A stretch of 64,000 bases of DNA from Diploscapter coronatus (taxonomy: Eukaryota; Nematoda; Chromadorea; Rhabditida; Rhabditidae): NCBI GenBank assembly GCA_964036155.1, contig OZ038423.1, forward strand, positions 36,781,249 to 36,845,248. Reading direction: 5' to 3'. The translations under genes and the position numbers were made by a program. The notes below the pieces were generated by a model. That model was not told the DNA's origin. It made no database searches and saw only the letters and a program-made list of their open reading frames with translations. Position 1 is the stretch's first letter, and every line of letters starts with the position of its first letter. Shown piece after piece: positions 11,159 through 30,125 of the stretch.

Positions 11159-11163
11159 TTATT
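11158..11163 (-). terminator. AATAAA overlapping the stop codon of gene A
   Basis: On the minus strand the last codons read TTG AAA TAA ACT, so an AATAAA hexamer overlaps the TAA stop and is followed by a T-rich stretch. If used, the 3' UTR would be only about 15-25 nt. Copy B has a different terminal sequence (TTTGAACAAGCTATCTAA) and lacks this overlap. Confidence 0.35.
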
Positions 11164-14100
11164 TCAAGGTGAAGTGATTGTCGAAAGTAGTGAAAACATC
11201 CAGAGACGAAGGTCGATTCATTGCGTCAAACTCCCAGCATTGTCGGATCTAAACTTGTATGTTTATTACTGGTTGCATGCATATTTGAAAACGAATACGA
11301 ATTACAGAATGACAGAATGGCAAGTCTCTTTCTTCTGAATGTGCTTTAATTAACCTTGTCATTTTGTCAACGCAACACTTCCAGAAAATGGCAAAGCAAT
11401 AAATAAACGACAAAATCAAGACTTCTCAAAGCTCGGCCCGCAGAAAAAGTGCATCTTTTCGGGAGAAGAAAAGAAGACCTACTCTTACTCTCAATATCGT
11501 ACGCTATTATTTCTGCGGATCAAGTTTTGAGAAGTCTGGACAAAATGAAAAAAAACTGAGAATGCCTTTCTTATTCATCTAAATTTGTAGTCCTCCAATA
11601 ATCAGTTTGATTTTCTAATACAATATAGAAATAAGCGCACAAATTGACTTACCGTATTATAAGCGATGTCATCAGACGTGGCAGGTCTCTCCAATCGATT
11701 TCCAGCTTCTAGCCAGCGATACAGCTCGTCGCCGGTCTTGATTTCTGAAACCAGTTGTGTTTATACGAATGAACTTCAGAAAAATCTTCAAAACCAATAA
11801 ATCACGGCATTGCAGCGTGTAAACTTTTCAATACCATGGGAAAAATCATTGTGATTTTTTCAAAGTTTTCATATTGCAATGATGTTGTAATAAATCGCCA
11901 TTCTAAAAAGGTCAACTACTTGGATAGAGTCTGTCTCCCTTGGTGAGAATTTCATAAATGACCACTCCATAGCTCCAGATATCGGATTTGGCAGAGAATC
12001 GTCGTTCTCGAATCACTTCTGGCGCAGCGTATTCAGTTTGAACGGGTGTCATCACATCGCCGTAGATTTCAGACTCTCCGTATGCCAACCTCTTCGCTTT
12101 ACGGAAACCGCCGATCTGGACATTTAAAAGATAAAAATTGAAAGCAGAAAAACATCTGCAAAACAAAGATAAAAGTCATAAAAGTGAACCTTGACAAGCG
12201 GACAGAACGGCGGCCGATCCATGACAAAGATGTGCTTGGCCTGCAGATTGCCGTGAATTATTCCTTCCTCTTCCAAATAGACCAGTCCATTCGCGATCTG
12301 TCCAGCCATATCGACGACATCCTGCCAGCTGCCCGCGTTTGTTTGCAAGTGCTTGATCAGATTCCTGTTCATCGAGTCGTAAACTAGTCGATAGGGCGGA
12401 GTCAGAATGGTCCAGGCTCGCAAATAGACGATATTCTGGTGCGATATATGGTTGAGAATGTTGAGTTCTCTAAAAGAAGTGATACCGAAAATGAGTTTTG
12501 TGTGGTCATCGTTGAGTAAATTATGTCAAAATTTATCTAAGCTCTTCATCTATAATTAATAAAGGGTTAGGTCGGGTAATTTAGTTGAAGTAATCTTCTT
12601 TATAAGCAGATCATTTAGGAAAAAAAACTTTAGTCTATCATTTCTTAACTCTAACCCTATGAATAGAGTATTGGCTATGAAATCTTGAATTTTAAAAAAC
12701 TGAAACCGTACTCTCTGATAGAAGATTCTGAAATAGGATCATCTTCGAAGCACTGCTTCACAACCACGTCCATATTCTTTCTGCCGGTCAAAACTCCACT
12801 GTAAATATCGTAGTGTCGACTTTTGTGGAAATGCGTCAGATTCGGCAGAAAGTCGGGTCGAATCTCTCGAGACATGGCGATTTCGTAAATGCCCAGATCC
12901 AATTCTTGTGCTTTGTGATAGGGTTTTTGCAATTTTAGCTCCGACACTTCGCTATCGTCTTGACTATAGTTGCGCTCTGAAAAAGTTTCTTCAAAGTCGA
13001 TAGAAAAATTACAATTTTGGCAAAAGATAAAAAAATATTTTTAAAAAATCACGAATGTGAAAGATCTATTTTGAAAAAAATATTTCGTTATAGTATTTGA
13101 TTTTTCTTTCTGATTCTTCAAATTGGCGTTATTTCTGAGTTAGTCTCTTGAGAGGTTCAAACAGTTTTACCTATTTAGTCACATGGTTTCTTTTAGAACT
13201 ATTTAGGCATTTCAGGTTTTCAAAATACAATTACCGTAGTAAAAGTCGATGAGCAGCGACAGCGCGGGGAAGTTTCGATTCTCTGCATGGAATACGAATT
13301 CTCCGTGTTCGTTCTCGGTGATTTTGTAGCTGTGAATGGCGCCGCCTTGTCGGACCATCAGCACATAGCTGTCCCCGTTGCAAAGTCGCACTGCGAAAGA
13401 ACCATCTCCATTGCCCTCGCTCATCAATTCATTCTCGATCATTATTCGAGAACGATCTCCTGCGTACCAACTGAATTTCAAATATCACTTGAAGAATATG
13501 ATTGACCTCTTACTGTTGTTGATCAGTTGTTCTCGTTAAAAAGGTAGCAGGAACTAGACCTTCGGAACTCGTCCACAGGGATTTGACCTTGTAATGGCTG
13601 TTACTGAAATGAGCATTTTATATTATCTCAGCTCATAGATTTGAAATTGATGGAAATTCGTATTCATTTTCTTGTCTGGATATGTGTCCGAGAGTTTATT
13701 CCAATTTAGAATTTTTTAGAAGTAATTATGATTTTTTTTAAACCTTATTCAATCTCATCCCTAATCAGATTTTCAAACTTACTTTCCTCCGTTTATCACC
13801 AGCGGTTCCCCCTGTCGAACAGAAATCTCCCCTTCTTGTTGCGCTTCATAATTTGCACGGACGATGACTTCCTGAGTGACCGAGTGTCGGAAGGTGTGCA
13901 CCTCGTGCTGGTGATGCTGGTGCTCTTCTTCATCGACTTCTCGAGGCTCTTCGGGAATTTCTCCGATAGGATACAGCAACTCTGTAGCCATTTCTTCTCG
14001 GTTGTCTGAAGAAAGAAAAACATCGAGAAAGATGATTTTTTCACGAACTTCTAAAATTAACGACTAAATCCTGCAGCGTATTGAATTTCTTGTAATCTCC

Positions 14101-17100
14101 ATCGATATGAAATCCCCCATTCAGCCCTTTGGCATGTTTGATACCATAGTGCTTTATTCCTAGAAATTAACGTTGATTGATCAGACAAACAATGAAATCG
14201 GACCGTGCTCGGCCTTGAGACTCAAGGCGAACATAGACTTGTCAGAAGGGCGGATCAGATACGTTCCGACTGGGGTAGAGTGCATCAATTCTTCGGCTTC
14301 CTGAAAGAAAATTAGTTTATCTCTTCGAAATTCCGGATTGAACTGCTTGGATGTTGAGAAAGCCGATTTTGAGTTTGTCTTGGATATTATTCGAATAATT
14401 TTCTGTTTCGACTGTAGTGGCTATTTGGATTATTCACGATTTCACAACATCGCAACCCATTTTATAGTTAGTTTTGTGTTTGGAGTTTTTGCAACAACTT
14501 TGAAAAAATCTGATAAAAGGGTTGCGAGGGGTCCAGGTTGTCGCTGTAGTTTCATACTGAATAATCAAAACATTACCTGTCGACCACAATGTCGGTAGAA
14601 GTTCTCATGAAGGAAAGTCGGCGTGAGACATTCGACCGGCACGTGACCCTTGACGCCTCCTGTTTTCGACAAACATGTCCACATAACCTCGCCTCTGAAT
14701 CATTTGGAAGGTTGATCTTTATGAGGATCTCGGAGTTTACGGTTTTTCATGAATAACTCGAACTTCGTCCAGGAAATGCACTGTCAACTCATCGTCGTTT
14801 CGTGAATTGTGCTCATAAATTACGGCGTAGAGCAGGTGCTCAGATCCTGAAATTTAAAATAAGAAATGACAAATTTTGAAATGCAAATGACAGACTTATT
14901 GTCGATCCAAATCCATCGTAGAGTTTATCAGAAAGCATCGTTTTACGATCACAGTCAGTTTAAGGAATTGTTGGAAATCGACTTTTAGGGCTTATTCGAT
15001 TGGAAATTTAGTGATAGATCCTTATCAAAGTGCCAAATTTTATTCACCTCTCATGCTTTTCCCTTCATTTTTAGCGATTAGAAAAGCGTTTGCATTGTTG
15101 ATGAATTTTAGAGTCCGCGTATGCGATAATTTTTCTGCTAGGAAAATGTTAACCGTCATTTCGCGAGAGGCGGAATTTAAGCTGCTATTATTCACGGAGA
15201 TTTTACAAGGGATAAGAAAATTCGTGTTACGTTTCCTATCAGTGCGGACAGGAATTAGATGTTTTACTAGCTTTTCCCCTCCTTTTGTTGCCAGTTTTGT
15301 TGAAAGATAAGAGCGGTGGAATGTGAAATTTCAAAACAGGCATTTTTATTGAAGAGAAAATCCAGAATTAGTATAAATGTGATCAAGAATTTTCTTCTCA
15401 CAAATTTAATTATAGAGCACATTTATGTTAGCTTCTGGTTAACTAATTTTTGTTCATACCTGAGCCAGCATAAGGATCGTAGAATTCGAGAGAATCTCGC
15501 CATTCAACCTCGTACTCTTCCGATTCTTCATATTCTTCTTCGTCTTCGAATTCTGTGGGCTGCACGTCAATGATAATTTCTTGTACCTCTTCTTTCACTA
15601 TAGTCAACGGCTCGTACGGCAGGTCTGAGGTTTAAACAAATTTGAAAACGCTAAAATAGACGTTTCGAAAATCATTCAGTACATCAGAGATTTTGGCAGA
15701 GCAGAAAAATCTCCGCTGCACTGTAGACCGGTCATCGCATTACACTGCCAATACCTCCGCAGTTCGTTCACTATTCCTTTGGAGAGTTCATTCCCGTTTT
15801 TATTATTTTGATTATGATCATTTCTCATTAAAAACGAATGGATATTCAAGTGAGTCGATTTGGACTGTCTTTCCTTCGAAAAGTACATAAATTACCTGGG
15901 TTGTAAAACTCGAAATGGACGACGATTTCGGGCTCAACATGTCTGACACTCGGTTGACTTTCCTCAGACGAATAACTTTCTTCGCTCTCCGAATACCTTT
16001 CCTCGTAAGCCTGATAGCCGGGCACATATTCTTGGAACGACTGATATTCTAACTCCTCGTATTGCAGTGTTTCCTCGGGTACCATATCGTAGTGAGTTTG
16101 ATTCTGCTCTGTTTCTGTTTGCACCTCTACTGGAGTATGTCTTTCTGCATAGCCCTCAAAGCCAGGTACACATTCGTGGAATGAATATCCTACAAATTCT
16201 TCATAGAATAGCTCTTCTTCGGGTACCACATCATAGTGAGTTTGATTCTGTTCTGTTTCTGTTTGAACCTCTACTGGAGTATGTCTTTCTGCATAGCCCT
16301 CAAAGCCAGGTACACATTCGTGGAATGAATATCCTACAAATTCTTCATAGTGCAACTCTTCGGGTTCGTGAATTTCTTCATCGTCAATAGTAGCAAAATC
16401 GTCTTCATGGATGACTTCTTCATAGGCAACAACGTCGTATTGTTGTTTGGCTGTCGATGTCGTCTGGCGTTCATGATGATGAGTTTCAACGTCTACAGAT
16501 CGTTCATTCAGCGACGTCGGTCTTTCTATTCGAGTGATTTCTGTTTCGTCGATTGAATTCTAAAAATCCGGAATTGAAAAAGAAACAACTTCATGGAGCA
16601 CATGAACTTTCTGACAACATGAAAAATCAATTTCTAATCCAAACCTATCTTCCTTTTTCAATTCCTACTCACATTTGATTTTTCACTTCATGCCTTCAAA
16701 CAATAGTGTCTTTAAGAAAAACAAAAAAACATACTCCTCCTCGGTGAGTGGGTTGTGGTCGAGGCTGTTCATGGATGACATGCTGCTAAAATTATAATTT
16801 ATTGAACAAGATAGCAAACATGACAAGACTTCGCTTCTCGATTCATGCGCGTTGTGTTGTTTCTTCGGAGAATCGATTATTTTGATGCAACAGCAGTACC
16901 ATTCCTCGATATCAGTCTGAAATTTAATAAAATAAAAGTTTTGAAGAACAGATATGGATCGTTGACGCATGCAATAAATAAAATGTCCCATTTCATTGGA
17001 GTATCACTTTGAAGTATGAAAGGAAGAAAAACTAGGCAATGTAATCATCATTATTCTTTACATGAATTTTTTGAAGTTCAATTTTTAAAAACTTGAGCCA

Positions 17101-17227
17101 GAATTTAAAATTCAGTTCTTGTCTCTTATTCCTAGCTCAATCAAATAACCTGCGGTTTATTATCGTTTTGATTCGCTTCCGGCTGCATATTTGTGATTTT
17201 GATTTGACAACAGCAAGCGTTGCCCAT
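11159..17227 (-). CDS. Gene A: SH4-SH3-SH2-SH3-SH2-pseudokinase (Src-family-like), 982 aa
   Basis: Exons in transcript order: 17227-17150, 16916-16830, 16785-16735, 16559-15896, 15624-15460, 14846-14741, 14694-14577, 14300-14204, 14159-14049, 14005-13783, 13603-13514, 13470-13235, 12976-12712, 12469-12190, 12115-11920, 11744-11653, 11248-11159 (2949 nt, in phase). The start MGNACCC fits N-myristoylation plus Cys palmitoylation; an in-frame TAG lies just upstream. A second Cys cluster (WYCCC) is in exon 2. Residues 73-348 are an acidic Tyr/Glu-rich linker. Domains: SH3 about 349-412 (LLYAVIYEHN, GHVPVECL); SH2 414-500 (GTYLIRPSD, IKHYGIKH); SH3 535-590 (GEISVRQGEP, SEGLVPATFL); SH2 597-675 (GSFAVRLCNG); kinase-like 700-982. 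VVVK lysine and alphaC EEL are present, but HRD is HGN (about 836), DFG is GFR (about 860), and no glycine loop remains. APE (AAPEVI) and SDIWSYGVVIYEI are kept. It ends right after the alphaI region, without a Src-type C-tail tyrosine. I infer a membrane-bound phosphotyrosine scaffold. Confidence 0.88.
16078..16365 (-). repeat. 144-bp (48-residue) in-frame tandem repeat in gene A linker exon
   Basis: Two adjacent, nearly identical 144-bp units inside exon 15896-16559 encode 48-residue repeats. Each contains YEEFVGYSFHECVPGFEGYA and a TEQNQTHYD motif; a diverged third partial copy (YQSFQEYVPGYQAYEERY) follows. Each repeat carries several Tyr in acidic context, candidate phosphorylation/SH2 sites. 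Copy B has only one diverged unit (GEFQSHSFSERVPGYQAY), so the repeat is copy-specific. Confidence 0.9.
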
Positions 17228-17309
17228 GCGCTACTGGATAGACTAGAAATCGATTCTGAGAATAAGGAAGACGACCGCTTGACGGGTGCAGTTGGTTCTG
17301 ATAAGATCG
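17228..17309 (-). promoter_or_regulatory. Leader exon of gene A with splice acceptor
   Basis: TTCTTTCAG ends at 17310 on the minus strand and is followed by 82 nt of leader before ATGGGC. The same arrangement stands upstream of gene B (30126 onward). An upstream in-frame TAG two codons before the ATG fixes the start. The leader also has another open frame conserved between copies (RSYQNQLHPSS), but it is simply the leader read in a different frame and stops shortly after. Confidence 0.5.
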
Positions 17310-18672
17310 CTGAAAGAACGCAATAAAGGGATTAATTATTGCAGGTGGCAGACAGGAAAGAATTGAATTGCGGGGACATTCAATAAATTGTTATAGGTTG
17401 AAAATTGAAATAATTTTTTCTAACATAATCCCCTGACCAGAGATAGGGAATAAGATGAAGTTGCTGAATTCTACTTTTAGAGCTTTCATGAAAAATTCAT
17501 CAACTTTGAGTCTGGAAAATTCGTACAGTTCATGTAATTTTTAGGATTACAGTTTTGATGAAGAACAACTAGCGAACTTTTCAAATTCATGGCTAGAAAT
17601 TGCATGTTTTTTTCAAAATGCCAAATAACTAATTATAAAGAAAAGATAGTCTAGAATCACGAAAGAATTCTTGCGCTCTTCACCCGCTTTGTTGAGTCAT
17701 TGAGCGCAAAGCAAAGCACTCTTAGATGGCAAGCAAAATGCTCTGCCCAAACTGATAACTCGATGATAAGTCTCTGACAATGGAAAATTGAGAGTAAGAA
17801 GAAAAAGAAGAATGTAATGAAGGGAGGACATTAACACACGATTTACTATGCCCAGAGAGGGATCATTGACATGAGAAAAACATTTATTTTCAGTCATTAC
17901 TAATTAAAAATAGGGATCCACACCTGTATTTGTTACAGATATATATATGGTATTTGAGTCAGGCTCAAATATATACAGAAAGAAACCAGAGCATCATAAG
18001 GAATTAGATACTAGATAGATTTAAAAGGACGACCGTTTTTGTTGGGCTCATAGAAAAAGACACCGGGTAGCTCGGTTGCGCCAAGAATTAGAAAAACGTC
18101 ATCGGTTTTCCTAATTCCTAGAACATTGAATGCAAAGGCTTCGAAATTTAACAAAGTTATCTATCTGAAACTCCTTCGGCTTGAATTTCAAAACTCGTTT
18201 CAGAAATTTGCTCACTCTTTATTTCTCTTTTTAATTATGAATTGGCTATCTGAAAACCGCATGGCATATGTTAAAAGTCTTTAAAGTTTTATTTTTGTTT
18301 GGAAACCGCGTGGCATGAGGAAAACACAAGACATGCAGTAATCTAGGCCATGACTCAGGCTAAAATCACATTATTTGGCAGCCTGGATAATTCGTAACCT
18401 GGAAGTTCGTAGTCTTCCAGATACTAGCTTCAGACTCATAACACACAGTACAGTAATTCAGGCAACAGATTCGGGATTGTAATTTTTCACAACCTTTTCA
18501 TTTCAACTCGTCTTTCAGGTTCTATCATTCGCTTCGAGTATTCTGGGCAAGCTTAAGCATATTTATTTCGTTCATTCATCAAATTCGGCCAATTCGAGTC
18601 ATAAAATCTCGGAAATCAATTAAAAGAGCCCGTAAATAGTCGAAAATTAGCACATCCTATATCCATTATTAT
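17310..18672. other. 5' flank of gene A, no coding sequence
   Basis: The part up to 17890 is shared with the 5' flank of gene B. Beyond it lie a short palindrome (TTTGAGTCAGGCTCAAA near 17955), the tag GGGCTCATAGAAAAAGACAC (18045-18064, also at 23531), and a small hairpin formed by AAGAATTAGAAAAACG and its imperfect complement. No gene is recognised. Confidence 0.5.
17824..17890 (-). promoter_or_regulatory. Conserved upstream block of gene A, putative first leader exon
   Basis: A stretch containing ATGTCAATGATCCCTCTC and then a donor-like GGGCATA|GTAAAT is strongly conserved with 30730-30790 (donor GTAAGT) while the surroundings drift. I read it as an untranslated first exon spliced to the leader acceptor, or a promoter-proximal element. 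It would bring an upstream ATG (MSMIPLWA). Confidence 0.35.
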
Positions 18673-20620
18673 TTTTCTTCAATTTCATGTATGGTTACAT
18701 TAGGATCTAAAGGATCTTTGATAATCTGTCGAATCAATAGAAAACTCGATAGTAGTTCAAGGAATCTGACAGAAATAGAGGTTTTCGAGATGTCTGATTC
18801 CAGAAGTACGTTATAGCCCCCAAAATCGCCTGTAAAAATGGACTACTCCATCATATCCAACTATTCTAGAGGCCTATAGGCCATTACATCCATCTCTGGA
18901 GTCACTGGGCTCACTCATGTCCCCAAAAATTATGAAACGTTCGTTATAAGACATACTCGAGCGGCCGTATTAATCCAGAATATATACGAAACAGGTCGTT
19001 TATAGTCTGCATTTCATCTGTGGTATCAATACTCCAAATATTAGTCTTCGATCACCGCATTCGGATATGCCTAGTTGCGTTATGGGGCACGACTGGAATT
19101 AGTCATTTCGAAAAATAACAAATTGCCTACTTTCAAATCATGTAAGCATATTTTCGCGGAAATTTCTCTACGAATTAACGTAGAATTATATTAATTTCCA
19201 TAAATAATCGTTGAAAATCCGAAAAAAATAGTTCCAGAAATAAGAAAAATTCGCGGCCTGCAGCGAGTACGAATTTATCGGCCTGACTCGCGTCCAATTT
19301 CGACCTAATTCCCTGTGATAGACTGAACTATTCGAGAAATCATCTGAAATTTTTTTAGAATGTATAGTTGGCATTCTAATGCGTCTTCAATCATCGAAAT
19401 TGGTAAAGATTCTAGTTGGTTAAAAAGTCGTAAAGTTTAGTAAGTTCAGTGCTGTACGTTTTGAAGTCTGCGTTGAATACCAACAAGTGGCATGCGAAAA
19501 AATCGATAAATAATCCAAGTTTAAGGTGTCTTTGAATAGTTCTGGTAGTTTTCGAACGGAATTTCAGCTCAGGGGCTTCAGAATTCGCCACGTCAGTTCC
19601 CTTATATAAGGACTTTGTACGTTTTCGATTTCTTCCTGAGTCTCAGAAGTGGCGCTCCAGACTAATTTCATATTCAATCGATGCCCATTGACGCCCTTCA
19701 ACTAGTTAGGCATATGAAATAACCTGAAATCGTGTAAAATAAAAACTTTTAGCAGAAGTCGGACAATTTTAAGAGAAAAATCGCGTCCCTGACATTCCCA
19801 CCTGCCCCGAGCGTTTCTCCTGACGAGTTCCTGTGCGTGTTCGGTCTCAAAATTCCATAAATTACTTCTACTTTGACATTTGAACGAGATAATAGGGTGT
19901 AATTAACTTTCTAATGTTTTAGTTGCGTTTTTCTGATCGACAGTAAATTTCTCTCCTTTTTGCTCGCTTCAATGCGTTCCATGTGAACGTCATCCACTTC
20001 TGCTTTTTGAGGGGACGGCACAAGGTAGCGTGTCTAAATAGGCATGAAGTTTAGAGAATAGATACCGTAGATGAAATACAGACCATATTCTAATGTCTGG
20101 GTACATTATTTCGAACAGTGCACTTTCCGAATATAGAGAATTTTTAAATCTTTCGCCACTTTTGAGATATTAGGTCACAAAATGACCCCATGGCTGACCG
20201 TCACATATCTAGATCATACCTCGATCCATAATATTAAAAGAAATAGATAGATACCATAGATGCAATAGAAGCTAAACTCGACTCGATTAAGTCATGTTCT
20301 GGGTGATTGCTGGCTTTTGTAACGGAGCTATTGTGAAGTATGGAAGATTTTGGAGTAATAAATGAGCCCAGTGACTCCAGAGATGGATGTATTGACCTAT
20401 AGACTTCTAGAATAGTAAGATATGATGGAATAGTCCATTTTGACAGGCGATTTGGGGGTCTATGACATACTTCTGGAATCACACCTCTCAAAAACCTCTA
20501 TTTCTGTCAGATCTCATGAACTTCTATAGTAATTCTAGGGGGTTCTGTTGAGGACAAGTGAAAATTTAGTACCTAGGGAAATCATACATGAAATTGAAGG
20601 AAATTAAGTGTAGGAGATAA
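18673..20620. mobile_element. Foldback/TIR element with arms of about 370 bp
   Basis: The left arm (about 18673-19040) and the reverse complement of the right arm (about 20235-20620) align over their length. Shared blocks include CAATTTCATGTATG, TCTGACAGAAATAGAGGTTT, CATCCATCTCTGGAGTCACT and TCACTGGGCTCA. The 1.2 kb interior has no open frame resembling a transposase. The element sits exactly between the two duplicated gene units. It is probably a non-autonomous DNA transposon; target-site duplications were not resolved because both ends are diffuse. Confidence 0.7.
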
Positions 20621-21039
20621 TTAGGCTAATTAGAATATCGGTTTGAGAGTTTTTGTTATTTTTTCAAAAGAAATAGTCGATAATTATTTGCATTGAGTAT
20701 TATAACGCGATCCAGTCAATTGGATAAAGGCAGCGCTAAAAACTTGTGAAAATATCAACGATCAGTTAGTATTATGACTTTTATAAGCAATTACATACTT
20801 TTGGTGCGCAATGACCGTCCCCCGGTATGAGCATGTGAAGCAGTTGAATGCTGTTTGAAAAATCAAGACTTTGCACTTGCATAAAAGTCGCTGTTTTTGT
20901 GTAATGAAAATTTTTGCAACGTTCAAGGAGCTTCATTGGAAGAAATTGAAACTACATCGGAAAGAAATAGGTTAGTTGAAAATTTAGAGATACTACTCTT
21001 CAAAGAAATAGGATAAGTCTAGAAAAAAGGAATTAAAAG

Positions 21040-24000
21040 TTAGATAGCTTGTTCAAAGGCGAAATAATTGTCGAAAATATTGCAAATATCCTGAGACGAA
21101 GGTCGATTCATTGCGTCAAACTCCCAGCATTGTCGGATCTAAACTTGTATGTTTATTACTGGTTGCATGCATATTTGAAAACGAAAACGAATACGAATTA
21201 CAGAATGACAGAATGGCAAGTCTCTTTCTTCCGAATGTGCTTTAATTAGCCTTGTCATTTTGTCAACGCAACACTTCCAGAAAATGGCAAAGCAATAAAT
21301 AAACGACAAAATCAAGACTTCTCAAAGCTCGGCCCGCAGAAAAAGTGCATCTTTTCAGGAGAAGAAAAGAAGACATACTCTTTCACTCTCCCAATATGAT
21401 ATGTTATTCTTTCTGCGGATCAAGTTTTGAGAAGTCTGGACAAAATGAAAAAAAAACTGAGAACGCCTTTCTTATTCATCTAAATTTGTAGTCCTCCAAT
21501 AATCAGTTTGATTTTCTAATACAATATAGAAATAAGCGCACAAATTAACTTACCGTATTATAAGCGATGTCATCAGACGTGGCAGGTCTCTCCAATCGAT
21601 TTCCAGCTTCTAGCCAGCGATACAGCTCGTCGCCGGTCTTGATTTCTGAAACCAGTTGTGTTTATACGAATGAACTTCAGAAAAATCTTCAAAACCAATA
21701 AATCACGGCATTGCAGCGTGTAAACTTTTCAATACCATGGGAAAAATCATTGTTATTTTTCAATTTGTCATATTGCAATGATGTTGTAATAAATCGCCAT
21801 TCTAAAAAGGTCAATTACTTGGATAGAGTCTGTCTCCCTTGGTGAGAATTTCATAAATGACCACTCCATAGCTCCAGATATCGGATTTGGCAGAGAATCG
21901 TCGTTCTCGAATCACTTCTGGCGCAGCGTATTCAGTTTGAACGGGTGTCATCACATCGCCGTAGATTTCAGACTCGCCGTATGCCAACCTCTTCGCTTTA
22001 CGGAAACCGCCGATCTGGACATTTAAAAGATAAAAATTGAAAGCAGAAAAAACATCTGCAAAATAAAGATAAAAGTCATAAAAGTGAACCTTGACAAGCG
22101 GACAGAACGGTGGCCGATCCATGACAAAGATGTGCTTGGCCTGCAGATTGCCGTGAATTATTCCTTCCTCTTCCAAATAGACCAGTCCATTCGCGATCTG
22201 TCCAGCCATATCGACGACATCCTGCCAGCTGCCCGCGTTTGTTTGCAAGTGCTTGATCAGATTTCTGTTCATCGAGTCGTAAACTAGTCGATAGGGCGGA
22301 GTCAGAATGGTCCAGGCTCGCAAATAGACGATATTCGGGTGCGATATATGGTTGAGAATGTTGAGTTCTCTAAAAAAGAAAAGTGATACCGAAAATGAGT
22401 TGTGTGGTCATCGTTGAGTAAACTAGTTGAAAATCTATCTAAGCTCTTCATCTATAATTAATAAAGGGTTAGGTCGGGTAATTTAGTTGAAGTAATCTTC
22501 TTTATAAGCAGATCATTTAGGAGAACAAACTTCTAGTCTATCATTTCTTAACTCTAACTCTATAGGGTGCGGAAAAATTATTGTCGCACTTATTCGTATG
22601 CTAATTACTGGCGAACTATAAGCTCAGATAATTTTCTAAATTAATTCTAGCATTATGTGACTTAATTCCACTAAAAATTTCTTCCGAAAATATTTTATAA
22701 ACTGAGAGAAAATTTTTTGAAAAATTCATTCAATTTTTCGAAAATTCGATTTTGGAACTTTTTCTATTATAATTATTTTTTATAAAATATCGTCAAAATG
22801 TAGCATGAAAACGACTGGAATAAGATTGTATGAACCTGCGTTGTATAAATATGCAAAAATAAAATCGGAACGATCCTATGTGTCCCGTGCCCAGGTAGAA
22901 CTTTAAAATAGTTGCGTGCTGCTACTTAATGGCGCCTGGGGCAAGGAACTTATATGGTTCCAGTAAAATTAAATTTTTTCATAAAGCACACCTCAGTTGG
23001 ATTAATATGGAGGGCGTGCGTTGTCCACCAAAGTGCAGCGTTGTCCATCAAAGAGTATAAAACTGAGGCTTTGTCCACCAAAGGTTTTGATGGACAACGC
23101 TACGGACTCGATTAATATGTGGCGTTATTTTTCAATCTAGCACCAACTGCTGAATTTTGGAATCGCGATGAATCTTACGCTGTCATAGAATTACATAGAA
23201 TTAGCCCAAAATTTGATTTCTCATATTGACATGTTTCGAAAGAAATTTTTTAATCTAAAATTCAAAAACTTTTGAAAAATAGTATATTATGCTTAGTGAA
23301 TCAGGCTATCTTAGGGATGAAAAAATCTTAAATTTTGCTTACTATGTGCCCATATTTGATTTTTTTTCGCTTCAGTTATACAGTGTGCCTTATGGATCTT
23401 TAACAATCATATATCGTGGCCCCCAAAAATTCATACTTCACAATTATACAAATTTTCTTAGAAATTTATGATCACTAGCATCTAAAGGTTCTATAACAAA
23501 ATATTTGGAGCCATAGGTAGTAAATTTTATGGGCTCATAGAAAAAGACACCGGGACACCGGGACACCGGGACACCGGTTAGAAAAAGACACCGGGTTTTC
23601 TAAGAAATAGTATGAGAAAGCAAGAGAAGAAAAGAAAAAAGCCGGTGTCTTTTTCTAACCGGTGTCCCGGTGTCTTTTTCTACGAGCCAATTTTATGCAT
23701 CTGGCAGGGCTTCTAGAAAAAGACACCGGCTTTTTTCTATTCCTATCTTGCCTCCCCATACTATTTCTTAGAAAATCTGGTGTCTTTTTCTAGGAGCCTC
23801 TGGCAGCAGATAATAAGTGCGACAATAATTTTTCCGCGCCTTGTATGAATAGAGTCTTGGCTATGAAAGTTTGAATTTTAAGAGATAATATAAAACCTAC
23901 TCTCTGATAGAAGATTCTGAAATGGGATCATTTTCAAAATACTGCTTCACAACCACGTCCATATTCTTTCTGCCGGTCAAAACTCCACTGTAAATATCGT

Positions 24001-27000
24001 AGTGTCGACTTTTGTAGAAATGCGTCAGATTCTGCAGAAAATCGGGTCGAATCTCTCGAGACATGGCGATTTCGAAAATGCCCAGATCCAATTCTTTTGC
24101 TTTGTAATAGGGTCTTCGCAATTTTAGCTTCGACACTTTGCTATCGTCTTGACTATAGTTGCGCTCTGAAAAAGTTTCTTCAAAATCGATAGGAAAATTA
24201 CAATTTTGGCAAAAGACAAAAAAATATTTTTAAAAATCATGAATGTGAAAGATTTATTTTGAAAAAAATATTTCGTTATAGTATTTGATTTTTCTTTCTG
24301 ATTCTTCAAATTGGCGTTATTTCTGAGTTAGTCTCTTGAGAGGTTCGAACAGTTTTACCTATTTAGTCACATGGTTTCTTTTAGAACTATTTAGGCATTT
24401 CAGGTTTTCAAAATACAATTACCGTAGTAAAAGTCGATGAGCAGCGACAGCGCGGGGAAGTTTCGATTCTCTGTATGGAATACGAATTCTCCATGCTCGT
24501 TCTCGGTGATTTTGTAGCTGTGAATGGCGCCGCCTTGTCGGACCATCAGCACATAGCTGTCCCCGTTGCAAAGTCGCACTGCGAAAGAACCATCTCCATT
24601 GCCCTCGCTCATCAATTCATTCTCGATCATTATTCGAGAACGATCTCCTGCGTACCAACTGAATTTCAAATATCACTTGAAGAATATGATTGACCTCTTA
24701 CTGTTGTTGATCAGTTGTTCTCGTTAAAAAGGTAGCAGGAACTAGACCTTCGGAACTCGTCCACAGGGATTTGACCTTGTAATGGCTGTTACTGAAATGA
24801 GCATTTTATATTATCTCAGCTCATAGATTTGAAATTGATGGAAATTCGTATTCATTTTCTTGTCTGGATATGTGTCCGAGAGTTTATTCCAATTTAGAAT
24901 TTTTTAGAAGTAATTATGATTTTTTTTAAACCTTATTCAATCTCATCCCTAATCAGATTTTCAAACTTACTTTCCTCCGTTTATCACCAGCGGTTCCCCC
25001 TGTCGAACAGAAATCTCCCCTTCTTGTTGCGCTTCATAATTTGCACGGACGATGACTTCCTGAGTGACCGAGTGTCGGAAGGTGTGCACCTCGTGCTGGT
25101 GATGCTGGTGCTCTTCTTCATCGACTTCTCGAGGCTCTTCGGGAATTTCTCCGATAGGATACAGCAACTCTGTAGCCATTTCTTCTCGGTTGTCTGAAGA
25201 AAGAAAAACATCGAGAAAGATGATTTTTTCACGAACTTCTAAAATTAACGACTAAATCCTGCAGCGTATTGAATTTCTTGTAATCTCCATCGATATGAAA
25301 TCCCCCATTCAGCCCTTTGGCATGTTTGATACCATAGTGCTTTATTCCTAGAAATTAACGTTGATTGATCAGACAAACAATGAAATCGGACCGTGCTCGG
25401 CCTTGAGACTCAAGGCGAACATAGACTTGTCAGAAGGGCGGATCAGATACGTTCCGACTGGGGTAGAGTGCATCAATTCTTCGGCTTCCTGAAAGAAAAT
25501 TAGTTTATCTCTTCGAAATTCCGGATTGAACTGCTTGGATGTTGAGAAAGCCGATTTTGAGTTTGTCTTGGATATTATTCGAATAATTTTCTGTTTCGAC
25601 TGTAGTGGCTATTTGGATTATTCACGATTTCACAACATCGCAACCCATTTTATAGTTAGTTTTGTGTTTGGAGTTTTTGCAACAACTTTGAAAAAATCTG
25701 ATAAAAGGGTTGCGAGGGGTCCAGGTTGTCGCTGTAGTTTCATACTGAATAATCAAAACATTACCTGTCGACCACAATGTCGGTAGAAGTTCTCATGAAG
25801 GAAAGTCGGCGTGAGACATTCGACCGGCACGTGACCCTTGACGCCTCCTGTTTTCGACAAACATGTCCACATAACCTCGCCTCTGAATCATTTGGAAGGT
25901 TGATCTTTATGAGGATCTCGGAGTTTACGGTTTTTCATGAATAACTCGAACTTCGTCCAGGAAATGCACTGTCAACTCATCGTCGTTTCGTGAATTGTGC
26001 TCATAAATTACGGCGTAGAGCAGGTGCTCAGATCCTGAAATTTAAAATAAGAAATGACAAATGACAGACTTATTGTCGATCCAAAATCCCTCATAACGTT
26101 TATCAGAAGCCACCGTTTCATGGTCAGTCATTTTAAGACGTACTATTTATAAGACTCGAGCAACGTTCAAAGGGGCTTGGCATTTGTGCAAAAGTCCTTC
26201 TATCGTGATATAGCCCATATGAGTTGATAGGGCCCTGGCTCCCATTCACAAAAATGGGATCATTTTGCCCCACCCTCTAAAGTGGGCGGAGCTATGCTAA
26301 TTTGAAAATCGCGACTTATATGAACAAATGCTCGCTAGATGGCACAAAGAAAACTTTTATTTTATATCGAATTCGAAAAATCTTTTCGGAATATAGCAGT
26401 TGAAGGGCAATACTTCATCTTTGCTTCCTAGAGTATCGTGCTACCACTTTACTATAATACCATATGGGTCCATGGTATACCATCCATATGGTTCTCGAAT
26501 GGTATGCTATAAAATGGGTATCAATTAAATCGAAATTAACTGGAGAGTAATATTGAAGTCAATTTCTATTAATTACAATAAGTGGTTTCGAAGTACCATC
26601 TTTTTTAATGAAGAAAACCATGTGCTGAAAATAACGAAAATTTGGTAACTTCAAATGACCATAAAAGGCGTTAGACTAATCTCTTTTCAAACGGCTTTCA
26701 GCATATTACTCAGTTCGCTAAGGGCTTTCGTTTGGCATATAACATGATGGATCTTATTTACTAAATGGTAACTTGACCATATGGGTCACTACCATTTGGT
26801 ACAATACCATGTTTGGTATCGTTTAGCTCCAAATTTTATATAAATAAATAATAGATGCTTCTAACTTCAATTTGAGCTCAAATTTGATCGCACTTTATAC
26901 GAAAATCTTCACATACCATTTTTCTGAAAATTTACTTCGATTTTTGCTTTTTGAGGTACCATTCGCATACCATTATAGCTAGACCCGAAGTGTCTTCACA

Positions 27001-30000
27001 AAAGTTGTTCAGTTTGATGAGCTCTATCAATTGGTATACATATTGTGGGGTTTAACCCTCAAAATTGCAGTTTCGATATTTGGGTCAGCAACTTTGGTTC
27101 AACAGTAAAATGAGTGTGATCATACCTAACCTATCGATTTTATGACTGATATTAGTGTAATTTTACCTGGAGAACTCAAATATGCAATAAAATCTTGTTG
27201 GCAAATAACAAATCTTCGAGTTATGGTCGATTTTATGGAAAAAATGCATGTTTTTGAAACCGTCATTTTTGACACTTTTGACTTTGGGACACCCTCCCAC
27301 ACCCAGCAAGTGGTTGACATCACCAAATTATATATCAAAAGATGGAAAATTGTATGGGCTACTTAATGCTCTTTAAATTTTTCGAAAATCTTTTATAGCA
27401 AAAAAGTTTTCTTTGTACCCCCTGAGGGGTGTCAAATCGTGAAAATGCTCAACTTTGACCCCCACCTAGCTCCGCCCACTTTTGGGGGTAGGGCCTGATT
27501 TCTCCATTTTTGTGATTGGGGTCCATGGGTGTATCCACCATATAAGTTTGGTCCGAATCCGAGACACTTTTGCAATTGTCCGGACCCCCCTTGACAGTTG
27601 TTCCCTTTATTTATGGAATTTCCCTTAAGAAATTGAATTTTATGGCTTATTCGATTAAAAATTTAATGATAGGTCCTTATCAAAATGCCAAATTTTATTA
27701 GCTTCTTGTGCTTTTCCCTTCATTTTTAGGCGATTAGAAAAACGTTTTGCAATGTCGATGAATTTTAGTCCGCGTATGCGATAATTTTTCTGCTAGGAAA
27801 ATGTTAACTGCCATTTCGCGAGAGGTGAAATTCAAGCTATTATTATACACAGAGACTTTACAACAGATAAAGAAAATTCGTGTTACATTTCCTATCAGTG
27901 CGGACAGGAATTAGATGTTTTACTAGCTTTTCCCCTCCTTTTGTTGGCAGTTTTGTTAAAAGATAAGAGCGGTGGATGTGAAATTTCAAAACAGGCATTT
28001 TTATTGAAGAGAAAATCCAGAATTAGTATAAATGTGATCAAGAATTTTCTTCTCAAAAATTTAATTATAGAGCACATTTATGTTAGCTTCTGTTTAACTA
28101 ATTTTTGTTCATACCTGAGCCAGCATAAGGATCGTAGAATTCGAGAGAATCTCGCCGTTCAACCTCGTACTCTTCCGATTCTTCCGATTCTTCTTCGTCT
28201 TCGAACTGCGTGGGCTGCACGTCAATGATAATTTCTTGCACCTCTTCTTTCACTATAGTCAACGGCTCATACGGCATCTCTGAGGTTTAAACAAATTTGA
28301 AAACGCTAAAATAGACGTTTCGAAAATCATTCAGTACATCAGATTTTGGCAGAGCAGAAAAATCTCCGCTGCACTGTAGACCGGTCATCGCATTACACTG
28401 CCAATACCTCCGCAGTTCGTTCACTATTCCTTTGGAGAGTTCATTCCCGTTTTTATTATTTTGATTATGATCATTTCTCATTAAAAACGAATGGATATTC
28501 AAGTGAGTCGATTTGGACTGTCTTTCCTTCGAAAAGTACATAAATTACCTGGCTTGTAAAACTCGAAATGGACGACGATTTCGGGCTCAACATGTCTGAC
28601 ACTCGGTTGACTTTCCTCAGACGAATAACTTTCTTCGCTCTCCGAATACCTTTCCTCGTAAGCCTGATAGCCGGGCACACGTTCGCTGAAGGAATGACTT
28701 TGAAATTCTCCATAGTGCAACTCTTCGGGTTCGTGAATTTTTTCATCGTCAATCGTAGCAGAATCGTTTTTATGAATGAAATGCTGCTAAAATTATAATT
28801 TATTGAACAAAATAACATGACCGGACTTCGCCTTCAGATTCATGCGCGTTGTGGTGTTTCTTCGAATGATTGATTATGTTTCTGTCATCGCTAAATACTT
28901 GATTGACCAAAGCCTGAAATTGAATCAAATAAGGTCCTGAAGAACAGATGTGGATTGTTGATGTATACAATAAATAAAATATCGCATTTCATTTCATGTC
29001 TTCAAACAGTAGTCTTTAAGAGAAAGTAAGAAAAAAACATACTCTTTCTCGATGAGTAGATTGCGATTGAGATTGTCCCTGGGCGTCATGCTGTTAAAAT
29101 TAGAATTTATTGAACAAAATAACAAATATGACCGGACTTCGCCTTCAGATTCATGCTCATTTGGTTGTTTCTTCGAATGATTGATTATGTTTCTGTCATC
29201 GCTAAATACTTGATTGACCAAAGCCTGAAATTGAATCAAATAAGGTCCTGAAGAATAGATGTGGATTGTTGGTGTATACAATAAATAAAATATCGCATTT
29301 CATTTCATGTCTTCAAACAGTAACGTCTTTAGAAAAAAAAAACATACTTTTCCTTGGTGAGTAGATTGCGATTGAGATTGTCCCTGGGCGTCATGCTGTT
29401 AAAATTAGAATTTATTGAACAAAATAACAAATATGATCAGACTTCGCCTTTAGATTCATGCTCATTTTGTTGTTCTTTCAGAGGATTGATTGTGCTGATG
29501 CAACAGGAATACCATTTATTGGCCAAATCCTGAAATTGAACCAAATAAAAGGTCTTGAAGAATAGATGTGGATTGTTGATGCATACAATAAATAAAATAT
29601 CACATTTCATTTCATGTCTTCAAATAGTAATGTCTTTAGAAAAAAAAAACATACTTTTCCTTGGTGAGTAGATTGCGATTGAGATTGTCCCTGGGCGTCA
29701 TGCTGTTAAAATTAGAATTTATTGAACAAAATAACAAATATGATCAGACTTCGCCTTTAGATTCATGCTCATTTTGTTGTTCTTTCAGAGGATTGATTGT
29801 GCTGATGCAACAGGAATACCATTTATTGGCCGAATTCTGAAATTGAATCAAATAAAAGGCCCTAAAGAATAGATGTGAATTGTTGATGCGTACAATAAAT
29901 AAAATGTCTGATTTCATTGGAGTATCATTTTGAAACATGAAAGAAAAAAAACTATGCAGTGTAATCATCATTATTCTTGATATAAATTTTTTTGAAGTTT

Positions 30001-30125
30001 AATTTTTAATTCTGGTTCATCTCTTATTCATAACTCAATCAAATAACCTGCAGGTTCTTATCGTTTTGACCCGTTTTCAAATACGCATTTATAATGGCAT
30101 GACAACAGCAGCAAACGTTGCCCAT
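21040..30125 (-). CDS. Gene B: paralogue of gene A with expanded N-terminal exon repeats, 961 aa
   Basis: Exons in transcript order: 30125-30048, 29836-29750, 29702-29655, 29529-29443, 29395-29348, 29224-29138, 29090-29043, 28913-28827, 28786-28549, 28279-28115, 26034-25929, 25882-25765, 25488-25392, 25347-25237, 25193-24971, 24791-24702, 24658-24423, 24165-23901, 22369-22090, 22014-21819, 21645-21554, 21138-21040 (2886 nt, in phase). The start is MGNVCCCC (acylation motif). Residues 27-190 are alternating 29- and 16-residue exons, then the acidic linker. SH3 is about 325-388, SH2 389-476, SH3 511-566, SH2 573-651, pseudokinase 676-961. The kinase lesions match gene A: HGN for HRD, GFR for DFG, glycine loop missing, VVVK and EEL kept. 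The C terminus differs (NYFAFEQAI versus NHFTLK). Two transposon-like insertions lie wholly in introns. No frameshift or stop was seen, so the gene looks intact. Confidence 0.87.
22563..23843. mobile_element. 1281-bp Tc1/mariner-type non-autonomous insertion with TA duplication
   Basis: It sits in the intron between the N-lobe and alphaC exons of gene B. Both ends carry GCGGAAAAATTATTGTCGC continuing to CACTTATT as inverted repeats (26 nt perfect, a few more imperfect). It is flanked by TA on both sides (22561-22562, 23844-23845). Gene A has the empty site with one TA (12658-12659), so insertion followed the duplication. There is no transposase frame. The interior carries further hairpins, including GTTGTCCATCAAAG against its complement around 23041-23100. 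Confidence 0.85.
23528..23800. repeat. Nested palindromes built from AGAAAAAGACACCGG
   Basis: Inside the TA-flanked insertion, TAGAAAAAGACACCGGG and tandem GACACCGG units face CCGGTGTCTTTTTCTA copies, making two successive hairpins (about 23531-23698 and 23708-23797). Their loops share the core CTTGC(C/T)TN..CATACTATTTC. The outer tag GGGCTCATAGAAAAAGACAC recurs once at 18045, outside this element. Confidence 0.8.
26137..27624. mobile_element. 1488-bp TTAA-flanked element with long degenerate terminal inverted repeats
   Basis: It lies in the intron upstream of the first SH3 exons of gene B and is absent from gene A, which has a single TTAAG at the matching place. TTAA stands at both borders (26133-26136, 27625-27628), the hallmark of piggyBac-type insertion. 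Terminal 150 bp are imperfect inverted repeats; landmarks are AAAGTGGGCGGAGCTA on the left and TAGCTCCGCCCACTTTT on the right. The interior is rich in ACCATATGG-like palindromic words. Overlapping frames at 27126-27366 do not resemble a transposase. Confidence 0.7.
28827..29836 (-). repeat. Tandem array of a two-exon cassette in gene B (four b exons, three c exons)
   Basis: Units of 305-311 bp repeat head to tail. Each holds an 87-nt exon (b; 29 residues ending NEHES(E/K)GE or NAHESEGE), a 47-nt intron in most copies, and a 48-nt exon (c; HDAQGQSQSQSTH plus three residues). All junctions are phase 0, so any number of cassettes keeps the frame. The two 5'-most b exons contain WYSCC; the other two have lost the cysteines. 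Gene A has a single b-c pair (16830-16916, 16735-16785). The 29750, 29443 and 29138 copies need splicing because GTCTGA or GTCCGG follows each b exon. Confidence 0.85.

Follow-up and report, generated by a model that had tools for sequence, protein, structure and literature searches.

A doubled Src-type SH3-SH2 cassette ahead of a predicted pseudokinase in the nematode Diploscapter coronatus

The kinases of the Src family (Src, Fyn, Hck, and Lck) are built in the order SH4-SH3-SH2-kinase, with a single SH3 domain and a single SH2 domain. Syk and ZAP-70, whose order is SH2-SH2-kinase, have no SH3 domain; their kinase is active, and they bind phosphotyrosine doubly. The pseudokinases of the PEAK family are not SH3-SH2-kinase modules. 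One study describes the SH3-SH2-kinase order as an anciently conserved, coevolving unit (PMC8662651). Here we describe two tandem genes, gene 1 and gene 2, found in a 64,000-nucleotide stretch of the genome of the nematode Diploscapter coronatus (contig OZ038423.1, positions 36781249-36845248; hereafter the window, to which all coordinates without a contig label refer), in which two SH3-SH2 cassettes precede a kinase fold that has lost its catalytic residues. Taken as a whole, our interpretation has, in our judgment, about an even chance of being right: a nematode family, divided anciently into two lineages, whose members doubled the Src cassette, lost catalysis, and became membrane-anchored two-SH2 scaffolds for phosphotyrosine that bring along a tyrosine-rich linker for docking, and of which the copies grew separately on two haplotypes.

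Gene 1 is predicted on the minus strand at 17227-11159, with 17 exons, GT-AG introns throughout, and a frame that is open to the stop codon and encodes 982 amino acids. Exons 6 and 7 (14846-14741 and 14694-14577) carry the first SH3 domain and the start of the first SH2 domain, which continues in exons 8 and 9 (14300-14204 and 14159-14049). Exon 10 (14005-13783) holds the end of the first SH2 domain, a linker, and the first part of the second SH3 domain; exon 11 (13603-13514) holds the remainder of that SH3 domain, and exon 12 (13470-13235) the whole of the second SH2 domain. The SH2-kinase linker and the pseudokinase follow in exons 13-17 (12976-12712, 12469-12190, 12115-11920, 11744-11653, and 11248-11159), and the protein ends in ...TFDNHFTLK directly after the kinase fold, with no regulatory tail. 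Against Pfam-A, the protein matched SH3_2 at residues 357-407 (4.5e-5), SH3_9 in two stretches, the best at 543-589 (3.9e-8), SH2 in two stretches (3.9e-22 in the whole protein; 5.8e-12 and 1.3e-10 for the domains excised singly), and PK_Tyr_Ser-Thr at 732-969 (1.3e-43), and its SH3 models clear the curated cut-offs in the whole protein. Gene 2 matched the same families. The initial annotation had given the limits of both genes and their exon counts (17 and 22, in phase), which fresh splicing reproduced exactly; the order it had read in both, namely an SH4-like start, an acidic linker, SH3-SH2-SH3-SH2, and a kinase fold, is borne out by the spliced models and by Pfam, a domain search already proposed there, which returned SH3 and SH2 domains twice and a tyrosine-kinase domain in both genes.

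The genome amounts to 169.7 Mb in three contigs; the two large ones measure 87.7 Mb and 82.0 Mb, which leaves about 13 kb for the third. We refer to the contig of the window as C2 and to the other large contig as C1. Two publications (PMC5483258, PMC9071541) describe the 170-Mb assembly of D. coronatus as a diploid genome with 5.7% heterozygosity that contains inversions and translocations, and the animal as parthenogenetic with a single chromosome pair. We infer that the two large contigs, with their paired loci, are the two haplotypes of this parthenogenetic worm. A genome search with the DNA of one kinase exon found four places, and a search with the core protein of gene 1 (69 of 188 candidates scored) gave at least 74 matches, the same four places among them. 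The latter search also returned two loci that carry just the first cassette, a diverged pair of loci (L024 and L026, described below), and weaker kinase matches. Copy c1a, on the minus strand of C1 at about 39.32 Mb, keeps all 17 exons and splice sites of gene 1; 16 of the 17 exons are equal in length, exon 4 is longer by 30 nt, and the last exon extends beyond the stop position of gene 1, the stop codon of c1a not having been located. Copy c1b keeps 12 of the 12 exons from 6 to 17. Where C1 corresponds to the window, a comparison of 30 kb shows one copy, as against two in the window. Synonymous divergence (dS) is 0.023 between gene 1 and gene 2 and 0.054 between c1a and c1b, as against 0.14-0.165 between contigs; duplication, or conversion, has therefore continued independently on each contig, and the tandem pair of gene 1 and gene 2 is a late copy event. 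The two first-cassette-only loci, L017 (C1:38173879-38174685) and L032 (C2:35830659-35831475), look like partial copies, because their exons match those of gene 1 one by one at 62-78% identity. On C1, such a locus stands directly behind c1b; on C2, no full copy was found beside L032.

One objection to a doubled cassette is that an SH3-SH2 gene and an adjacent SH3-SH2-kinase gene may have been read as one, and the existence of loci with only the first cassette, on both contigs, agrees with it. However, exon 10, which follows a phase-1 intron, opens inside the closing stretch of the first SH2 domain and runs unbroken through the linker into the second SH3 domain, so that the two SH3-SH2 halves are not two genes, and the candidate of two separate genes was ruled out. 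The length and splice sites of this exon are identical in c1a and c1b. Moreover, replacement changes in the inter-cassette linker are few (one of four changed codons), the diverged gene L024 has the same order, and the first-cassette-only loci themselves resemble partial copies. With these points in view, a model artefact seems to us very unlikely.

Gene 1 is not a chance reading and appears to be under selection as read, since c1a keeps its full set of exons and splice sites and the ratio of nonsynonymous to synonymous divergence (dN/dS) over the core, residues 295-953, is 0.20 (dN 0.028, dS 0.143; NG86 method in Biopython). Taken domain by domain, with small counts, the ratio is about 0.08 in the inter-cassette linker, 0.09 in the second SH2 domain, and 0.16 in the kinase; it is higher in the first SH2 domain and both SH3 domains (0.24, 0.27, and 0.40), and reaches 0.69 in the short SH2-kinase linker. 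A different explanation is that these genes are decaying pseudogenes, kept only through recent duplication. In its favor, dN/dS is 0.67 between c1a and c1b and 0.40 between gene 1 and gene 2, two repeats have been inserted into introns of gene 2, and exons 1-5 were not found in the 10 kb before c1b (tblastn at 1e-3). Against it, neither a stop nor a frameshift interrupts the reading frame after splicing, be it in gene 1, gene 2, c1a, or exons 6-17 of c1b. Because these frames are intact and the between-contig ratio is 0.20, at least one copy per contig is likely to be under constraint. We therefore hold decay of the whole set to be improbable, and the pseudogene explanation was rejected for gene 1 and c1a; gene 2 and c1b may be decaying.

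Judged by its matches, each cassette of gene 1 is of the Src type. The first cassette alone matched the SH3-SH2 tandem of Fyn (9e-14; residues 3-144 of 152), with Syk weaker (2.6e-6), and the second alone matched Hck (4e-12) and Lck, here along about 4-142 of 147. In alignments with the Src family, an arginine occupies the FLVR position of each SH2 domain, and a second one lies in helix A. The binding tryptophan of the SH3 domains is likely replaced in both, by methionine in the first and histidine in the second; this call was made by counting back from the conserved proline, and aligners place the single tryptophan of the first SH3 domain differently. In an alignment with four kinases from this genome whose motifs are intact, the kinase fold of gene 1 retains VVVK and the helix-C glutamate, has lost the glycine loop, and reads HGN for HRD and GGF for DFG. 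In other words, the aspartates of HRD and DFG, the asparagine of the catalytic loop, and the glycine loop are absent, and this is so in gene 1, gene 2, c1a, and c1b. A single stretch of alignment with HCK takes in residues 192-633 of the 635-residue core (second SH3 domain, second SH2 domain, and kinase); in that search, the first rank goes to an EGFR construct that carries the kinase twice, through two kinase-only stretches. The term pseudokinase in the earlier description is upheld by the losses at HRD, DFG, and the glycine loop. Activity despite missing canonical residues is known for a few kinases, and the retained lysine of VVVK and helix-C glutamate would suit a fold that is active through unusual chemistry. 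Given the loss of the other four elements in all four copies, such activity is highly improbable. An AlphaFold2 model of the second SH2 domain alone (two window sequences, 78 residues) had a mean pLDDT of 55 and was not used.

A search on SH2 exons led to a deeply diverged paralogue, L024 (C1:11797001-11806000), and its partner L026 (C2:11285001-11295000), which lie 25-28 Mb from the window genes and c1a. L024 is predicted to have 15 exons and to encode 930 amino acids, in the order SH3-like, SH2, long linker, SH3-like, SH2, and pseudokinase (HRN and DFS). All 15 exons and their splice sites are kept in L026, with dN 0.021, dS 0.134, and dN/dS 0.16 over 930 codons. Identity between L024 and gene 1 is about 27% over 101 kinase residues and 30% over 79 residues of the second SH2 domain. 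Because this diverged pair has the same order, SH3-SH2-SH3-SH2-pseudokinase looks like a family rather than one odd gene; the comparison is of two diverged lineages in one genome, and the second SH3 domain of L024 is not recognized by Pfam. Among the excised pieces, the first SH3 domain of L024 scored 3.6e-4 (below the cut-off), the first SH2 domain 6e-5, and the second SH2 domain 1.8e-8. The kinase region of L024 has a GC-AG intron (between 4750 and 4699), the sole one in the model, which is kept in L026.

The introns bear on the origin of the doubled cassette; their positions were compared by eye, and L022 was read by hand. Two Src-type genes of this genome, L021 and L022, have four introns in common: two of phase 2, one in the n-Src loop and one just ahead of the first SH2 residue, which is normally tryptophan, and two of phase 1, one in the mid-SH2 loop and one after the SH2 domain. 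A third gene, L020, has the last three of these. The Abl-like gene L023 lacks the before-tryptophan and mid-SH2 introns. In gene 1, three of the four are present in the first cassette (n-Src, mid-SH2, and after-SH2) and three in the second (n-Src, before-tryptophan, and after-SH2), while L024 has all four in its first cassette and two (before-tryptophan and after-SH2) in its second. In both lineages, the mid-SH2 intron is missing from the second cassette only. A phase-1 intron also precedes both cassettes of L024, each of which is a symmetric 1-1 module, and precedes only the first cassette of gene 1. On the simplest reading of these patterns, Src-type genes were the source of both cassettes, and the double order predates the split of the gene 1 and L024 lineages. 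The doubled cassette would thus be old, because L024 shares with gene 1 two SH2 domains, SH3-like stretches, a dead kinase, and intron positions and phases.

In a tree of eight cassettes, the second cassettes of gene 1 and L024 join (94/93), with L022 next (92/94); no branch was starred, and both first cassettes take no settled place among L020, L021, and Abl. In an approximately unbiased (AU) test on 8 rows and 159 columns, with the grouping chosen after the tree had been seen, placing the two cassettes of gene 1 as sisters gave a p-AU of 0.008; uniting all four cassettes in a single clade gave 0.166, uniting the two first cassettes 0.29, and grouping these two with L021 0.154. The initial annotation had proposed an internal duplication of the SH3-SH2 cassette. 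In its simple form, a recent duplication within gene 1, this was rejected at a p-AU of 0.008. Because the four-cassette clade is not rejected (0.166), the duplication may instead be an old one; a fusion with a second Src-type gene is another possible origin.

The N-terminal part of gene 1 begins in exon 1 (17227-17150) with MGNACCC, an SH4-like start that we take to be a motif of the myristoylation/palmitoylation type. Exons 2 and 3 (16916-16830 and 16785-16735) encode no known domain, exon 2 containing a CCC run; the support for exons 1-3 consists of splice signals and of conservation in c1a, where all three recur. Exon 4 (16559-15896) encodes the acidic, tyrosine-rich linker, which ends in exon 5 (15624-15460). 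Within exon 4, at 16071-16350, lies an in-frame repeat of 144 bp (48 amino acids) in 1.9 copies with 96% matches, by which the tyrosines are doubled. The 347 N-terminal residues of gene 1 include 24 tyrosines and 88 aspartates or glutamates; the corresponding part has 21 tyrosines in 357 residues in c1a and 13 in 322 residues in gene 2. The motif Y-[DE]-[DE] occurs 6 times in gene 1, against 1.9 expected from shuffling (p 0.01), and 5 times in c1a, against 1.7.

These parts allow a mechanism to be proposed, in which the genes encode a kinase-dead Src relative acting as a membrane-anchored phosphotyrosine scaffold; we regard this as rather probable. (i) The MGN-CCC start, if the motif behaves as its resemblance suggests, would be myristoylated and palmitoylated and would hold the protein at the membrane; (ii) an active Src-type kinase, encoded by one of the motif-intact genes, could phosphorylate the acidic linker on its tyrosines; (iii) the two SH2 domains, with their phosphotyrosine arginines intact, could bind phosphotyrosine partners two at a time; (iv) the kinase fold, being dead, and the SH3 domains, being degenerate, would serve as structural or protein-binding parts, with no phosphotransfer; (v) the SH3 latch and tail latch of Src are missing from the sequence, and the restraint that they impose would presumably be lost with them; and (vi) the doubled cassette, having arisen before gene 1 and L024 separated, would have given rise to a small family in this nematode.

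Several observations weigh against this picture. Excised singly, the SH3 domains of gene 1 fall below the Pfam cut-offs (20.8 against 21.8 bits; 24.2 against 30 and 20.3 against 22.9), and it is the tandem context that, on these scores, carries their matches. The second SH3 domain of L024 has no Pfam match even at an E-value of 10 and is inferred from its position, exon limits, and resemblance by eye. The L024 model has no MGxxxC start, and its first SH2 domain seems, by eye, to lack the helix-A arginine. The excess of Y-[DE]-[DE] is partly due to the internal 144-bp repeat, and gene 2 has no such excess (1 against 0.6 by shuffling, p 0.46). The kinase tree was unreadable, with two very long branches, for which reason the placing of the pseudokinase among kinases was dropped.

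The main rival to the scaffold is a decoy, which would compete with active Src-type kinases for phosphotyrosine and membrane sites and damp their signaling without forming a platform. Both SH2 domains of gene 1 keep their phosphotyrosine arginines on a dead kinase, and the same genome has three Src-module genes in which HRD and DFG are intact (L020, L021, and L022), as a decoy would lead one to expect. Nevertheless, one SH2 domain would suffice for such a role, which calls neither for two constrained cassettes nor for a long tyrosine-rich acidic linker, and we consider the decoy unlikely, though a serious contender.

Gene 2 is predicted on the minus strand at 30125-21040, with 22 exons, GT-AG introns throughout, and a frame open to the stop codon that encodes 960 amino acids. 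Exon 1 (30125-30048) encodes an MGNVCCCC start, and exons 2-8 (29836-28827) go back to one pair of exons that a tandem repeat of 307 bp has multiplied. This repeat, at 28781-29918 in 3.7 copies, holds the exon pair with its introns, and the multiplication is not in the gene 1 model; the multiplied exons encode no known domain, and their support consists of splice signals. A shortened acidic linker follows in exons 9 and 10 (28783-28115), then SH3-SH2-SH3-SH2 in exons 11-17 (26034-25929, 25882-25765, 25488-25392, 25347-25237, 25193-24971, 24791-24702, and 24658-24423), and the SH2-kinase linker and pseudokinase in exons 18-22 (24165-23901, 22369-22090, 22014-21819, 21645-21554, and 21138-21040). 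The protein ends in ...FDNYFAFEQAI directly after the kinase fold. Intron 10 contains an interspersed repeat (26140-27600) with at least 125 matches genome-wide (40 of 1131 candidates scored); among the scored matches, 29 copies besides the window cover nearly all of query positions 1-1233 at 79-85%, and 26 of the 29 lie on C1. A second interspersed repeat, in intron 18 (22570-23850), has at least 111 matches (40 of 881 candidates scored), which are fragments of some 30-460 bp on both contigs, and its region includes an array of the octamer GACACCGG at 23546-23577. Elsewhere in the window, an open frame on the minus strand at 49590-50048 matches the DMAP1-binding domain (1.3e-9) and is probably the start of a DIP2-like gene.

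In the open-licence literature, as far as its accessible text goes, we found no described family with this domain order, in agreement with the initial annotation; judged by titles, wording for a doubled cassette led to Csk and Abl2. We know of no Caenorhabditis elegans gene of this order, and other nematodes may well have an orthologue that nobody has studied. The doubling of the cassette on a dead kinase would break the geometry that underlies Src regulation. Motif-intact Src genes and putative scaffolds in one nematode may show what the SH3-SH2 unit does when it is freed from catalysis, and the related copies on two haplotypes offer a natural series for dating such changes.

Compared with the known systems, these genes would resemble the PEAK family in the use of a dead kinase fold as a scaffold, as two reports describe it for that family (PMC10279700, PMC9221080). 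They are like Syk and ZAP-70 in having two SH2 domains ahead of a tyrosine-kinase fold, but here an SH3 domain stands before each SH2 domain, the kinase is dead, and the SH2 match is weaker (Syk 2.6e-6 against Fyn 9e-14). With Abl they share SH3-SH2-kinase, and Abl scores about equally to Hck over the second SH3 domain, the second SH2 domain, and the kinase; in contrast, the Abl-like gene of this genome lacks the before-tryptophan and mid-SH2 introns and has no doubled cassette. The likeness to the Src family extends to the lipidation-type start (MGN[AV]CCC in gene 1, gene 2, and c1a), to SH3-SH2 adjoining a tyrosine-kinase fold with cassettes that match Src tandems nearly end to end, and to intron positions and phases in common with the Src-type genes of the same genome. 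Unlike Src, these genes have two SH3-SH2 cassettes and a long acidic linker, have lost the catalytic residues, have no tail after the kinase fold, and probably have a changed SH3 binding face. The parts are known, and the order was not met in the open-licence literature searched; what had been proposed as a new class is better rated as a variant of the Src module than as a new class of system.

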